Assembly (NCBI GenBank): GCA_949296455.1
Contig: CASFOZ010000004.1
Coordinates: forward strand, 62,001-126,000
Source: an uncultured Eubacteriales bacterium
GTDB taxonomy: Bacteria > Bacillota > Clostridia > Christensenellales > CALVMC01
Length of the DNA stretch: 64,000 nt
Reading direction: 5' to 3'
Shown here: positions 33,111 through 64,000 of the stretch, piece by piece
Layout of the letters: each line of letters starts with the position of its first letter
Numbering within the stretch: the first letter of the stretch is position 1
Position numbers and translations under genes: made by a program
The notes under the pieces: generated by a model
Databases searched by the model: none
What the model was told of the DNA's origin: nothing
What the model saw: the letters and a program-made list of their open reading frames with translations, nothing else

Positions 33111-34502
33111 ATGGACAGATTGACTCTTGCAGATTTAAGAAAAAATGTAAATAATTTCAGCGATAAAAAAGTTACGGTCAGCGGTTGGGTAAGGACGGTA
33201 AGAGATTCTAAGGTTTTCGGTTTTATAGAACTTAACGACGGTACGGCTTTCAAATCCACTCAGATATTCTTCGATAATAAATTGAAAAATTTCGACGATA
33301 TAGTAAAACTCAACAGCGGAGCAGGTATATCCGTTGTCGGTAAACTCGTTCTTACTCCCGAGAATAAACAGCCTTATGAAATAAGGGCGGAAAAAATTAC
33401 GGTAGAGGCAGAGTCCGACCCCGATTATCCCTTGCAAAAGAAAAGACATAGTTTAGAATATCTCAGGGAAATCGCTCATTTGAGACCGAGAACCAATACT
33501 TTTTCTGCGGTATTCAAAGTCCGTTCAGTTGCGGCTCAGGCAATCCATTCCTTCTTTGCAGGAAGAAATTTCGTATATGTCCACACTCCTATTATTACCG
33601 CTAGCGACTGCGAGGGAGCAGGGGAAATGTTTCAGATAACAACTTTGGATTTGAAAAATATTCCATTGAACGATAATAAAGAAGTTGATTATTCGGAAGA
33701 CTTTTTCGGCAAAAAAACAAGCCTTACCGTTTCAGGTCAGTTGGAGGCGGAATGTTTTGCTCTTGCCTTTTCAAATGTCTATACTTTCGGACCTACTTTC
33801 AGGTCTGAAAAAAGCTTTACGCCAAGGCACGCTGCCGAGTTCTGGATGATAGAGCCGGAAATAGCTTTTGCCGATTTAAAAGACGATATGAACCTTGCAA
33901 GCGATATGCTTAAATATGTGATTAAAGAAGTTATGGATAAATGCGGGGAAGAAATCGAATTTTTCGACTCTTTCGTCGATAAAGGACTCAAACAGAGGCT
34001 TACCGACTTGCTGTCGTCCGATTTTGTTCATATAACTTACAGTAAAGCCGTTGAAATATTAAAAAAACACAACGATAACTTTGCTTACAAAGTAGATTGG
34101 GGCAGCGATTTGCAGACCGAACACGAAAGGTATTTAACCGAACAGATTTACAAATGCCCCGTCTTCGTTACCGATTATCCTAAGGAAATCAAAGCCTTTT
34201 ATATGCGTATGAACGACGATGATAAAACAGTTGCCGCTATGGACTTATTGGTTCCCGGGGTAGGTGAACTTATTGGCGGAAGTCAGAGAGAAGAAAGGTA
34301 CGACAAACTCGTTAAAAGAATGAAGGAACTAAATCTCGACGAAAAAGATTACTATTGGTATTTAGACCTCAGAAAATACGGTGGTGTAAAGCACGCAGGC
34401 TTCGGCTTAGGGTTTGAAAGACTTATTATGTATTTAACGGGTATTTCGAATATAAGAGACGTATTGCCTTTTGCAAGAACTTGTAAAAGCGCAGATTTTT
34501 AA
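33111..34502 (+). CDS. asnS: Asparaginyl-tRNA synthetase
   Basis: This class IIb aminoacyl-tRNA synthetase charges tRNA-Asn. An N-terminal OB-fold anticodon domain ([24 protein letters not shown]) is followed by class II motifs. [15 protein letters not shown] is motif 1, the region around [22 protein letters not shown] is motif 2, and [15 protein letters not shown] is motif 3. The length of 463 residues and the end [14 protein letters not shown] mark AsnS rather than AspS. It is a single-gene unit. Confidence 0.96.
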
Positions 34503-34513
34503 GATTAAAAAAC

Positions 34514-34542
34514 TTGACAACGGTAAACTAATATATTAATAT
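34514..34542 (+). promoter_or_regulatory. Probable promoter of tRNA-Thr
   Basis: TTGACA (34514-34519), 17 bases, TAATAT (34537-34542). The tRNA begins 139 bases downstream. Confidence 0.5.
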
Positions 34543-34680
34543 CTTTATTGCCGCTTTTAAGTTTTAAATTCAATGGATTCGATAATTCCGATATAATTAA
34601 TTTCAGGCTGAAACAGTTAAAACTTAAACGGCAATATAAATCAGATATGTTTAAATATTTTCCTTTAAAAAAGGAAATTT

Positions 34681-34756
34681 GCTACTGTGGCTCAGTCGGT
34701 AGAGCAGCTGATTCGTAATCAGCAGGTCGCCGGTTCAAGTCCGGCCAGTAGCTCCA
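34681..34756 (+). tRNA. tRNA-Thr (anticodon CGT)
   Basis: A full cloverleaf is visible. The acceptor GCTACTG pairs with CAGTAGC; the D arm is GCTC/GAGC; the anticodon stem GCTGA/TCAGC encloses the loop TTCGTAA with anticodon CGT; the T arm is GCCGG-TTCAAGT-CCGGC. The discriminator is T and CCA is encoded. It reads ACG codons. Confidence 0.97.
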
Positions 34757-34785
34757 AAAAAAGCAAGATAATTCTTGCTTTTTTG
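34757..34785 (+). terminator. Terminator after tRNA-Thr
   Basis: AAGCAAGA-TAAT-TCTTGCTT followed by TTTT, directly after CCA. Confidence 0.85.
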
Positions 34786-34905
34786 ATTTTACTCTTTAAA
34801 AAATTTGTATTAAAAAGTTTGTAAAAAATAATATGCGAAATTAATAAAATTCTGATAAAAACTGATATTTGTATTTCAATAAAATATAAAATAATCAGGT
34901 ATTTA

Positions 34906-34975
34906 TACCGATTACAGCCGAAAAAATACCGATTAAGTTTAATATATTGTAAATACTTTTTTTGTAATCTATAAT
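34906..34975 (+). promoter_or_regulatory. LytTR operator and promoter
   Basis: Two identical 9-base direct repeats, TACCGATTA at 34906-34914 and 34927-34935, are separated by exactly 12 bases (21-base centre spacing). LytTR regulators are known to bind two 9-base direct repeats separated by 12-13 bases, usually just upstream of -35. Here a promoter follows: TTGTAA (34947-34952), 17 bases, TATAAT (34970-34975). The downstream gene is itself a LytTR protein, so autoregulation is likely. Confidence 0.75.
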
Positions 34976-34998
34976 TATTTTAAGGAGGAAAAATCGAG

Positions 34999-35451
34999 AT
35001 GAAATTTGAACTGATAATTGATAAAAGCAAAGAAGAATCTCTTACATTATTATCAAAAAAAGAATCAGCATTTACATCAAAAATTGAAAATTTAGTAATG
35101 CAATATAATGGAATAGATTTATTGCAAGTATATTATGAAAATGAAATTGTTAATTTACCGATAGAAGATATCGAATGTTTTTCGGTTATAGACGGGAAGC
35201 TTTATGCAATAGATAATGAAAACAAACGGTTTTTTGTTAATAAAAGACTTTATGAAATTAAAGAAGAATTACCGAAAAATTTTATAACAATTAACAAATC
35301 GTCGATTGCAAATAAAAATGCACTTTCTAAATTTACTTTATCTTTCAGCGGGGCGGTGGATGCGATATTTAAAAGCGGTTATAAAGAATATGTATCAAGG
35401 AGATGTTTTGCGGAAATAAAAAGGAGGATTAAAAATGAACGATTATGTTAA
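34999..35451 (+). CDS. LytTR-domain DNA-binding regulator
   Basis: This 150-residue protein lacks a receiver domain and ends in a LytTR DNA-binding region (residues about 50-146; recognisable by LPIEDIECFSVIDGKLYAI, LPKNFITINKSSIANKNAL and SGYKEYVSRRCFAEIKRRI). Stand-alone LytTR proteins of this size paired with a DUF3021 membrane protein are common in Firmicutes. The membrane protein is thought to control the regulator. The next gene overlaps by 17 bases, a strong sign of coupling. Codon use is somewhat more AT-rich than that of the housekeeping genes nearby. Confidence 0.88.
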   Translation: MKFELIIDKSKEESLTLLSKKESAFTSKIENLVMQYNGIDLLQVYYENEIVNLPIEDIECFSVIDGKLYAIDNENKRFFVNKRLYEIKEELPKNFITINKSSIANKNALSKFTLSFSGAVDAIFKSGYKEYVSRRCFAEIKRRIKNERLC

Positions 35452-35854
35452 AATATTTTTTAAAAGAGGTGCGCTTTTTTCGGTTTTAGGGCCTATAATT
35501 TATGCCATTATTATACTGATATTAGGTTCAATAGGAACTTTAAATTATGAAATATGGCAAAAAATTGTTTTAGGAATTTTTACAAGCGTAATACTTGCTT
35601 TTATTGCAGCAGGAACAAGCGTTGTCTATGAAATTGAAAAATTGCCTATGTTATGGGCGACAGTTATTCATTCGGGAGTTTTATATCTGGATTATATTGC
35701 AATTTATCTTTTGAATGGGTGGTTGGCCTCGAATTGGATTACTGTACTCATTTTTACAGCAGCGTATGTGGCAGGATATTTATTAGTTTGGCTGATAATT
35801 TATTTTTCAATAAAAGCTAAAATAAAAAGCGCAAATAAGAATTTACAATCCTGA
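35435..35854 (+). CDS. DUF3021 family membrane protein
   Basis: This 139-residue protein has four predicted membrane helices in two hairpins, of the size and pattern of DUF3021. The start ATG lies inside the LytTR gene, with AAAGGAGG at 35420-35427. By analogy to similar pairs it may hold the LytTR protein inactive at the membrane and release it on an unknown signal. That mechanism is inferred, not shown here. Confidence 0.8.
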   Translation: MNDYVKIFFKRGALFSVLGPIIYAIIILILGSIGTLNYEIWQKIVLGIFTSVILAFIAAGTSVVYEIEKLPMLWATVIHSGVLYLDYIAIYLLNGWLASNWITVLIFTAAYVAGYLLVWLIIYFSIKAKIKSANKNLQS

Positions 35855-35928
35855 TATGAAAATTTTGTTTAATTGAATAGAATTATAAGGTTGTAATAAA
35901 TATATTTCGGTAAAAATGCCATGTTAAA

Positions 35929-35972
35929 AGCATATAAAAAATCGGTCAAAACTGTCCGATTTTTTATATGCT
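35929..35972. terminator. Long perfect hairpin, probable bidirectional terminator
   Basis: A 17-base perfect inverted repeat, AGCATATAAAAAATCGG and its complement, surrounds a 10-base loop, with T-rich and A-rich runs inside the stem. It ends the LytTR/DUF3021 unit. Confidence 0.8.
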
Positions 35973-36082
35973 AATATTCAAAATATTAAAATTGTCAATT
36001 TTTTAATAATCTGAATCAAATTTTATTTTGCAATTTATACTTAAATAATATTCATATTAATATGAGAATAAGGATTAAATAA

Positions 36083-36111
36083 TTGACTTTTAGCCATAAA
36101 AATAGTATATT
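36083..36111 (+). promoter_or_regulatory. Promoter of the isochorismatase-family gene
   Basis: TTGACT (36083-36088), 17 bases, TATATT (36106-36111), with AACGGAG before the start codon. Confidence 0.65.
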
Positions 36112-36135
36112 AAAAAAAACTAACGGAGAAATATT

Positions 36136-36687
36136 ATGGAAGCGAAAAAAACTGCTATTTTAGTTGTTGACATGTTAAACGATTTTGTAACCGGCGCATT
36201 GAAATGTGACAGAGGACTTGCCATTGTTCCCAATGTCGCAAGACTGCTTGACGGAGCAAGAAAAAAAGGCGTAGCCGTCATTTTCTGTAACGATGCGCAT
36301 ATTAAAGGTATTGACCATGAATTGAAACTTTGGGGCGACCATGCTATTGCAGGGACGAAGGGAGCGGAAGTTATTCCCGAACTTAAACTTTGCGATAAAG
36401 ACTATGTCGTACCGAAGAGAAGATACAGTGGATTTTTCAGAACCGACCTTGAATTATTACTTAAAGAATTAGGTATCGAAAATGTAGTAATGACGGGACT
36501 TCATACCCATATGTGCGTAAGACACACTTCTGCCGACGCATACTGCTTAGGATATAATGTAATAGTGGCCTCAGACGCAACGGACAGTTTTACCGAACAA
36601 GATTATAATATAGGAATAGATTACCTTAAATCGGTTTACGGCGCTCAAGTGTATACGGTAGACGAATTACTTGCAAAAATAAAGTAA
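36136..36687 (+). CDS. Isochorismatase-family cysteine hydrolase
   Basis: This 183-residue enzyme has the catalytic triad of the family: Asp12 (VVDMLNDF), Lys94 (VPKRRYSGF) and Cys127 (HTHMCVRHT). VMTGLHTHMC contains the family's cis-peptide neighbourhood. HIKGIDHELKLWGDH resembles nicotinamidases and related amidases. It may recycle nicotinamide for NAD, but ureidoacrylate- and isochorismate-type enzymes share these residues. It is a single-gene unit. Confidence 0.85.
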   Translation: MEAKKTAILVVDMLNDFVTGALKCDRGLAIVPNVARLLDGARKKGVAVIFCNDAHIKGIDHELKLWGDHAIAGTKGAEVIPELKLCDKDYVVPKRRYSGFFRTDLELLLKELGIENVVMTGLHTHMCVRHTSADAYCLGYNVIVASDATDSFTEQDYNIGIDYLKSVYGAQVYTVDELLAKIK

Positions 36688-38511: not shown

Positions 38512-39669
38512 TTACAGTATTCTGATTTTCATTATACCTTCTTGACTGTAAAATTCCTTTTCGATATCTTTCGGGATTTTACTGTCTACGTCTATAATCA
38601 TATAGGCAAGTTCGCCTCTGCTGGTGCATAGGATATTTGCTATATTTATTTTGTGATTGGAAAGTATCGTTGTTGCTTTTGCGATAATTCCCGGTACGTT
38701 TTTATGAACGACCGTCATTCTCTGAACTCCTGCTCTCGGGGAAACGGTTGTCGGGAAGTTGACGCTGTTGACTATATTTCCGTTTTCCAAAAAGTCTTTT
38801 AATTGTTTTGCCGCCATAACGGCGCAGTTGTCTTCGGCTTCGGGAGTGGAAGCGCCGAGGTGAGGAATAGTAATAACGTTTTTAACTCCGACAAGTTCTT
38901 CGCAAGGGAAGTCTGTTACATACTTTGCAATTTTACCCGATTTGAGTCCTTCTATAACGGCGTCGTTGTCGACGAGTTCGCCTCTTGCGCAGTTAATTAT
39001 GGTAACTCCGTTTTTCATTTTGGAAACAGCCTCTTTGTTGATAGTGCCTTTTGTATCTTTGTTGTAGGGAACATGAATAGTAATGTAATCGCTTTCGGTT
39101 AATATTTTTTGCAAAGATTTAGCGTTCTGAACTTCGGAAGAAAGTTTCCAAGCGACGTCTACGCTCAGGAAAGGGTCAAATCCCAAGACATTCATATCGA
39201 GTGCGACAGCCGAATTTGCAATCAAAGAGCCTATTGCTCCGAGTCCTATTATACCCAAGGTTTTGCCTTTGATTTCAGGTCCTATAAAAGCCTTTTTCCC
39301 GCTTTCGACCTGCTTTGGAATATCGGGAGTACCTTTTAAAGTATTTACCCATTCAACAGCAGAGACAATGTTTCTCGAAGACAGGATAAGAGAGCAGAGA
39401 ACGAGTTCTTTAACTGCGTTAGCGTTTGCCCCCGGGGTATTGAATACAACAATGGCCTTTTCCGAATAGTCGGGGATAGGTATATTATTTACCCCTGCGC
39501 CGCATCTTGCAACAGCAAGAAGTTTGTCTTTAACGGCATATTCGTGCATTGAAAAACTTCTTAAAAGTATACCTTCGGGATTTTCGGCGTCTTTTGTGAC
39601 TTTATAATTAGAATCGAAAACCTTATCGATTTTATTGCTTATTTCATTCAGTTTGAGTATATTAAACAT
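38512..39669 (-). CDS. serA: D-3-phosphoglycerate dehydrogenase
   Basis: This is the first step of serine synthesis. The NAD-binding motif LGIIGLGAIGSLIAN, the D-2-hydroxyacid dehydrogenase signatures (INCARGELVDNDAV) and the catalytic His in IPHLGASTPEAEDN are present. The C terminus (about residues 310-385) is an ACT domain, the serine-sensing part. The length of 385 residues is the short form without the intervening domain. It follows serC by 24 bases. Confidence 0.95.
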   Translation of the reverse strand: MFNILKLNEISNKIDKVFDSNYKVTKDAENPEGILLRSFSMHEYAVKDKLLAVARCGAGVNNIPIPDYSEKAIVVFNTPGANANAVKELVLCSLILSSRNIVSAVEWVNTLKGTPDIPKQVESGKKAFIGPEIKGKTLGIIGLGAIGSLIANSAVALDMNVLGFDPFLSVDVAWKLSSEVQNAKSLQKILTESDYITIHVPYNKDTKGTINKEAVSKMKNGVTIINCARGELVDNDAVIEGLKSGKIAKYVTDFPCEELVGVKNVITIPHLGASTPEAEDNCAVMAAKQLKDFLENGNIVNSVNFPTTVSPRAGVQRMTVVHKNVPGIIAKATTILSNHKINIANILCTSRGELAYMIIDVDSKIPKDIEKEFYSQEGIMKIRIL

Positions 39670-39693
39670 TATCTGCTCCTTAATAGTTATTTG

Positions 39694-40764
39694 TTATATA
39701 TTCTCTTTTTCGAATTTTTTCATAAATTCAATAAGAGCTTTTATGCCTTCAATAGGCATAGCGTTGTAAATGCTTGCACGCATTCCGCCAACGAGTCTGT
39801 GTCCTTTAATTGAAACGAGACCTGCAGCGGCTGCTTCTTTTATGAATTTAGCGTCGAGATTTTCGTCTCCCGTGACGAACGGAACATTCATTATCGAGCG
39901 GTCTTCCTTTGCAACATTATTTTTATAAAGTTTGGAATTATCGATAAAGTCGTAAAGCATTTTTGCCTTTTCGATATTAATCTTTTCCATAGCGTCGACG
40001 CCGCCGAGATTTTTAAGCCATTTAAATACAAGCATTGAAACATAAATACTGAAAGTAGTAGGGGTGTTATAAAGGCTGTTTGCATTTGCTTGCGTGGAAT
40101 ATTTTAAAAAGTTCGGGCAAGCTTCCGTTGCACCGCTGTCTACAAGGTCTTTTTTAACTATAACTACGGTAAGTCCCGATGCGGAGATATTTTTCTGCGC
40201 ACCGGCGTAAATTAGACCGAAATCGTTTACATTATACCTTTTACCCAATATGTTAGAACTCATATCGCATACGATAGGAGCCTTGCTTTTCGGAAGTTCG
40301 TTATACTGTGTTCCGAAAATAGTGTTGTTCGAAGTGATATGAAGATAATCAATATCTTCTCTTACTTTTACGTTTTTAGGAATATATGTGTAAGTTTTAT
40401 CCTCAGAACTTGCCGCACATACTATATCGCCGTATTTTTTTGCAACCTTGAAAGCGTTGTTTGCGAAGTTACCCGTAACAATATAATCGGCTTTACCTTT
40501 TTTAAGAAGGTTAAGGGGAACCGCTTCAAACTGTAAGGTTGCACCGCCTTGCAGATACAGTACATAGTAGTCGTCGGAAATACCCATAAGTTCTCTCAAA
40601 AGGGAAATCGATGTGTTATGAATTTCCTCGTAGGGTTTACTGCGGTGACTCATTTCGCATACGCTCATACCGGTACCGTTATAATCAGTAAAATCTTTTT
40701 TTACCTGCTCCAAAACTTCGAGCGGAAGCATTGAAGGACCTGCGGAAAAATTATAAACTCTCAT
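39694..40764 (-). CDS. serC: Phosphoserine aminotransferase
   Basis: This PLP enzyme performs the second step of serine synthesis. It opens VYNFSAGPSMLPLEVLEQ, and LQGGATLQFEAVPLNL and the lysine region YAGAQKNISASGLTVV (PLP Lys in AQKN) follow. The length of 356 residues is normal. It is the first gene of the serC-serA-small-protein operon, with AAAAGGAGA before the start. Confidence 0.96.
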   Translation of the reverse strand: MRVYNFSAGPSMLPLEVLEQVKKDFTDYNGTGMSVCEMSHRSKPYEEIHNTSISLLRELMGISDDYYVLYLQGGATLQFEAVPLNLLKKGKADYIVTGNFANNAFKVAKKYGDIVCAASSEDKTYTYIPKNVKVREDIDYLHITSNNTIFGTQYNELPKSKAPIVCDMSSNILGKRYNVNDFGLIYAGAQKNISASGLTVVIVKKDLVDSGATEACPNFLKYSTQANANSLYNTPTTFSIYVSMLVFKWLKNLGGVDAMEKINIEKAKMLYDFIDNSKLYKNNVAKEDRSIMNVPFVTGDENLDAKFIKEAAAAGLVSIKGHRLVGGMRASIYNAMPIEGIKALIEFMKKFEKENI

Positions 40765-63613: not shown

Positions 63614-64000
63614 ATGAAAAATCATAAATTTGTATTTTTTGTCACGGTTGGAATAATATCGTTTATATTTTCCCTTATAGGGCTTTTGTCCGCACTCGGA
63701 ATTGCCGATATTTATTTTATTTCGAGTTGGTATCTTGCGGTTATACTCTATCTTTGCGCAATTTCGGTATGTTTTGCCGTATGCTATAATTCGCCGGTAT
63801 TTTATGCTTTTGCATTAATTACAGCCGGTCTTTTTCTGTATATAAGCATTACGCAAAGATTAAATTACGGATACGAAAGGCTTTTCGGTATAGTCATTAT
63901 CTGTATAGGATTAGGATTTTTATTGAATGCGTATTTAAACAGAAATACTTACTTTTGGCTCAGAAGCGGTATATTTTTTACGGTAAGCGGTATTATTTTA
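63614..64000 (+). CDS. Hypothetical membrane protein (partial, runs off the window)
   Basis: The open frame begins ATG 63614 (MKNHKFVFFVTVGIISFIFS) and is still open at the window edge, after 129 residues. At least four hydrophobic helices with short loops are visible. No ribosome binding site better than GGCGG is seen. No family was recognised from this part. Confidence 0.65.
   Translation, partial: MKNHKFVFFVTVGIISFIFSLIGLLSALGIADIYFISSWYLAVILYLCAISVCFAVCYNSPVFYAFALITAGLFLYISITQRLNYGYERLFGIVIICIGLGFLLNAYLNRNTYFWLRSGIFFTVSGIIL

Follow-up and report, generated by a model that had tools for sequence, protein, structure and literature searches.

Within the window, the whole 64-kb stretch of a small Clostridia genome analysed here, a receiver-less LytTR transcription regulator and a DUF3021 membrane protein are encoded by a two-gene operon whose promoter is preceded by two perfect copies of TACCGATTA (Table 1). 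The operon most probably specifies a two-gene LytTR Regulatory System (LRS), in which the LytTR protein would activate its own transcription through the repeats, the DUF3021 protein would restrain it at the membrane, and a signal would release it. The probability of this reading is put at roughly 0.86, with binding, activation and inhibition carried over by analogy from S. mutans. The LRS class, which pairs a LytTR regulator with a membrane inhibitor and includes several systems with DUF3021, was described by Zou et al. (2018; PMC6193735). The direct repeats of LRS promoters are 9 bp long; 12 bp mostly separates the two copies, and the distance to the downstream -35 element is most often 10 bp. 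For HdrR of S. mutans, gel shift and mutation established both binding to its repeats and activation of the operon that encodes it (PMC6193735). At the sequence level, the operon described here is a clear but ordinary two-gene LRS, with every feature of the template in place: a LytTR regulator devoid of a receiver, a membrane protein gene directly 3′ in the same operon, 9-bp direct repeats with a spacing of 11-13 bp immediately ahead of the -35, and retention of the repeat pair upstream of orthologous operons. Since this design has already been published as a class, the self-activating, membrane-gated switch predicted in the sequence-only reading is not new.

The repeat pair and its promoter

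The two copies of TACCGATTA flank a 12-base spacer (34915-34926), and their identity runs one base further to the left, yielding the 10-bp word ATACCGATTA. Written in the register of Zou et al., the half-sites become ACCGATTAC and ACCGATTAA, still 12 bp apart; 10 bp separate the second from TTGTAA, and another 17 bp lead to TATAAT. The sequence-only reading had described the copies as perfect, 12 bases apart, directly upstream of the -35 and akin to known LytTR operators. The coordinates in Table 1 bear out the first two points; the gap to the -35 amounts to 11 bases counted from TACCGATTA and to 10 in the LRS register; and the repeats, their spacing and their distance to the -35 all fit published LRS promoters. 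Further downstream, the LytTR start codon at 34999 lies 24 bases past the -10 element, with a good ribosome-binding site ahead of it.

Table 1. Features of the LytTR-DUF3021 operon and its promoter, in window coordinates
Feature	Position	Strand	Details
Distal half-site	34906-34914	+	TACCGATTA; in LRS register ACCGATTAC, 34907-34915
Proximal half-site	34927-34935	+	TACCGATTA; in LRS register ACCGATTAA, 34928-34936
-35 element	34947-34952	+	TTGTAA; 10 bp past the proximal half-site in LRS register (ACCGATTAA ends at 34936)
-10 element	34970-34975	+	TATAAT; 17 bp past the -35
Ribosome-binding site	34982-34989	+	AAGGAGGA; read directly from the sequence
Receiver-less LytTR transcription regulator	34999-35451	+	150 aa; Pfam PF04397, E 1.8e-16, residues 49-144
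DUF3021 membrane protein	35435-35854	+	139 aa; Pfam PF11457, E 3.4e-21; predicted inhibitor or sensor
Probable terminator	35929-35972	+	3′ of the operon; strong hairpin with T-rich arm, -24.2 kcal/mol, z -10.9

The neighbours of the operon are a tRNA-Thr gene, an asparaginyl-tRNA synthetase gene and an isochorismatase-family gene. The tRNA-Thr gene lies 5′ of the operon together with its own terminator-like hairpin, and the downstream isochorismatase-family gene has a promoter-like site of its own, TTGACT-17-TATATT. A search for RNA families across 34500-36200 returned none above threshold except the tRNA. Elsewhere in the window, the minus strand at 38512-40764 bears two adjoining genes that, named by eye, resemble the phosphoglycerate dehydrogenase and phosphoserine aminotransferase of serine synthesis, followed by a small uncharacterised gene.

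What stands out in this promoter is the pairing and placement of the repeats, not the word TACCGATTA by itself. The lone word is not rare in the window, with seven exact copies, and 40 copies at up to one mismatch versus 25 expected. The pair, in contrast, is unique in the 64-kb window and occurred in 0 of 100 shuffles, and the 1.38-Mb genome (95% complete) contains no second exact copy of it. Conceivably, the pair could be a chance repeat in AT-rich intergenic DNA, as exact 9-mer pairs of any sequence at the period of the site arise a few times per 64 kb (seven start positions in the window versus 1.9 expected). Yet for a region of the relevant size the odds are far longer: when the 250 bp preceding the LytTR gene served as the Markov model, ~0.2% of the simulated sequences contained an informative exact 9-mer pair at a period of 20-22. 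The pair is also conserved in relatives, and coincidence, already refuted by the comparison of orthologues described below, is left with a negligible share of the probability.

The LytTR and DUF3021 proteins

The pairing of a receiver-less LytTR gene with a DUF3021 membrane protein, initially proposed from the sequence, was upheld by Pfam at the E-values listed in Table 1. PF04397 is the single Pfam domain of the LytTR protein, and a receiver domain is absent. A LytTR two-component response regulator was considered and ruled out, as the 150-aa protein is without a receiver domain and has no adjacent histidine kinase. NCBIfam gave no family above cut-off for either protein. Structural searches placed the regulator in the expected family: a PDB search with the single protein sequence produced nothing useful, a profile search with the same protein reached the LytTR structure 3d6w (E 1.2e-4), and Foldseek, queried with a low-confidence LytTR model, listed 3d6w, 4g4k and 3bs1 among its first matches. 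The structure models were built on two-sequence alignments and are weak (pLDDT 53 and 65).

The DUF3021 gene begins inside the LytTR gene, and the two share 17 bases. Its product has at least three clear hydrophobic segments, and four helices in the low-confidence model. No second member of either family was found in the genome; as the assembly is 95% complete, another LytTR gene or a target may have escaped detection. With one LytTR gene found, there is no competing LytTR reader in the genome for the repeats.

Conservation among relatives

Up to 396 genomes of the same order were searched for relatives of the LytTR protein. Matches at E 1e-8 or better were present in 44 genomes, indicating that the gene is patchy in the order. 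In the close relatives of the DUF3021 type, DUF3021 directly follows the LytTR gene, mostly with a 4-base overlap.

The sequence-only reading had staked its proposal on conservation of the repeats upstream of orthologues, and the repeats are indeed conserved. Among the 17 close operons of the DUF3021 type that are directly preceded by a promoter, the window's own included, the best-scoring pair has a 12-bp spacer in every case, with 11 and 13 also allowed and a shuffle frequency of at most 0.013 each. A -35/-10-like pair starts 8 to 10 bp downstream of the repeats in these same 17 operons. Two relatives, L019 and L049, in which another gene lies immediately upstream and no promoter is present there, were left out. 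In both, the LytTR-DUF3021 pair stands directly behind that other gene, an arrangement that may reflect an operon of different organisation. Among the relatives, all 30 best pairs have a period of 21, although 20 and 22 were allowed. A count independent of the pair score gave the same period: among the upstream regions of the window and 25 relatives, 24 of the 26 have a CC[GA]..CC[GA] pair at period 21, and no more than seven have one at any other given period from 8 to 45.

Across the close group, the half-site takes the form xCCG[AT][AT], with xCCGA[AT] given as the form common to the order-level relatives, and the proximal half-site (ACCGA) is better conserved than the distal one. In a genome of the same genus, the distal half-site is identical and the proximal one carries a single substitution, at its last base (TACCGATTG). 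This substitution is a point against the LRS reading, although LRS repeats tolerate A or G at the last base of the repeat. The protein side is altered as well. The most conserved LytTR motif, FhRhHRS, is FITINKS here (residues 95-101; window 35283-35301), and its conserved histidine is replaced by N in nearly all close relatives, alongside the altered half-site. From these sequences, co-variation of the LytTR reader and its half-site appears possible.

The same comparison bears on a very different account, in which LytTR plays no part: some unrelated factor would recognise the repeat, or the repeat would be a structural or UP-element-like feature. Such an account can draw on the lone word TACCGATTA being fairly common in the genome. 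It sits poorly, however, with the behaviour of the pair, the 12-bp spacer and the distance to the -35, all of which go along with LytTR-DUF3021 genes in many families of the order, and with the fit of the site to the published LytTR site. It is judged very improbable.

Proposed mechanism and direction of regulation

In the favoured LRS reading, the LytTR protein would bind as a pair to the two 9-bp direct repeats, which are two helical turns apart (period 21), such that both half-sites would lie on the same side of the helix immediately ahead of the -35. AgrA provides a structural parallel, as a dimer on direct repeats upstream of a promoter (PMC4227749). The bound LytTR protein would then recruit RNA polymerase to the promoter of the operon that encodes it. 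Its DUF3021 partner, presumably produced from the same mRNA by coupled translation, would keep the regulator in an inactive state at the membrane until a membrane or envelope signal arrives, whereupon release would initiate a positive feedback that raises the operon.

We infer the sign of this regulation, activation, from the position of the site and from analogy. The evidence gathered here gives a predicted binding position, not the direction of control, and the pair could also be a LytTR operator through which LytTR represses, or DUF3021 could be a positive co-activator or sensor, producing a homeostatic loop and not a switch. With no other detectable targets, simple negative autoregulation would also be economical. 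The layout of the promoter argues otherwise: a gap of 10 bp lies between the half-sites and the -35, and the promoter itself stays uncovered, which is the position of an activator. In all five S. mutans LRS tested, moreover, the regulator activates and the membrane protein inhibits the operon (PMC6193735). Repression by the LytTR protein, or a positive role for DUF3021, is improbable, if less so than a role for an unrelated factor.

Further sites in the genome

To our knowledge, the LRS of S. mutans are the only ones characterised so far, and little has been established about what such systems sense and control. A genome-wide search had been expected to reveal the regulon of the LytTR protein. 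This expectation failed: no wider regulon was found in the 95% complete genome at the stringency searched, and the one promoter-placed copy of the site is that of the LytTR-DUF3021 operon itself. A search with TACCGATTA-12-TACCGATTA at up to three mismatches gave 15 matches in the genome, and another with ACCNNTTA-N13-ACCNNTTA at up to one mismatch gave 18. Apart from the operon's own, the matches overlap open frames of at least 70 codons, usually in mid-gene or at the 3′ end. The two best of these (C2:165444 and C12:15916) fall at the 3′ ends of genes, one ChrA-like and the other of the helix-turn-helix type, and neither match is followed by the start of a gene. A promoter-constrained pattern retrieved the operon and one coding match. 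When six relatives were searched, each with its own form of the half-site, the operon site was recovered in every one; the other matches inspected, which for G112, G145 and G046 were a part of the total, fall in open frames, save one in G286 that is too near its gene for a promoter. On the minus strand of the window, at 63963-63992, TACCGCTTA-12-TACCGCTTC resembles the streptococcal LRS half-site; it is probably a chance occurrence, as it runs antisense within a plus-strand open frame (63614 onward).

The failure to find a regulon leaves the output of the LytTR system unexplained. A tentative and rather doubtful solution is that in this lineage the LytTR protein has one operator genome-wide, that of its own operon, and would operate as a closed, self-only membrane switch instead of a regulon regulator. 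If its own operon were the single target, the output would be none other than the DUF3021 protein. Whatever its output, a small genome with one LytTR gene and one clear operator offers a simple case for asking what LRS do. The clade consensus, consisting of a second half-site ACCGA[AT]nn, a period of 21 and 10 bp to the -35, differs from the streptococcal form and helps to find further members.

Comparison with known systems

The closest parallels are BrsRM and HdrRM of S. mutans, in which a small, soluble, receiver-less LytTR regulator is likewise directly followed by a membrane protein gene, and paired 9-bp direct repeats with a 12-bp spacer are located just upstream of the operon -35 (PMC6193735). 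The 10 bp separating the repeats from the -35 here is the commonest value tabulated for LRS promoters (PMC6193735). The systems diverge in the sequence that would be read and in reach: the half-site here is ACCGATTA, versus ACC(A/G/T)CTTA in most LRS listed (PMC6193735), and BrsRM and HdrRM act on genes for bacteriocins and competence, whereas no further sites were found in this genome. The LytTR protein here would share the DNA-binding fold of AgrA, a LytTR response regulator of S. aureus, as suggested by the low-confidence model, but AgrA also carries a receiver domain and works with a histidine kinase, neither of which accompanies the operon here. The S. aureus pair SACOL_RS12395/RS12400, a putative novel LRS (PMC6193735), has another repeat sequence and a 9-bp distance to the -35; by domain and layout, it resembles the present operon in combining LytTR and DUF3021 in a two-gene operon with repeats upstream of the -35.
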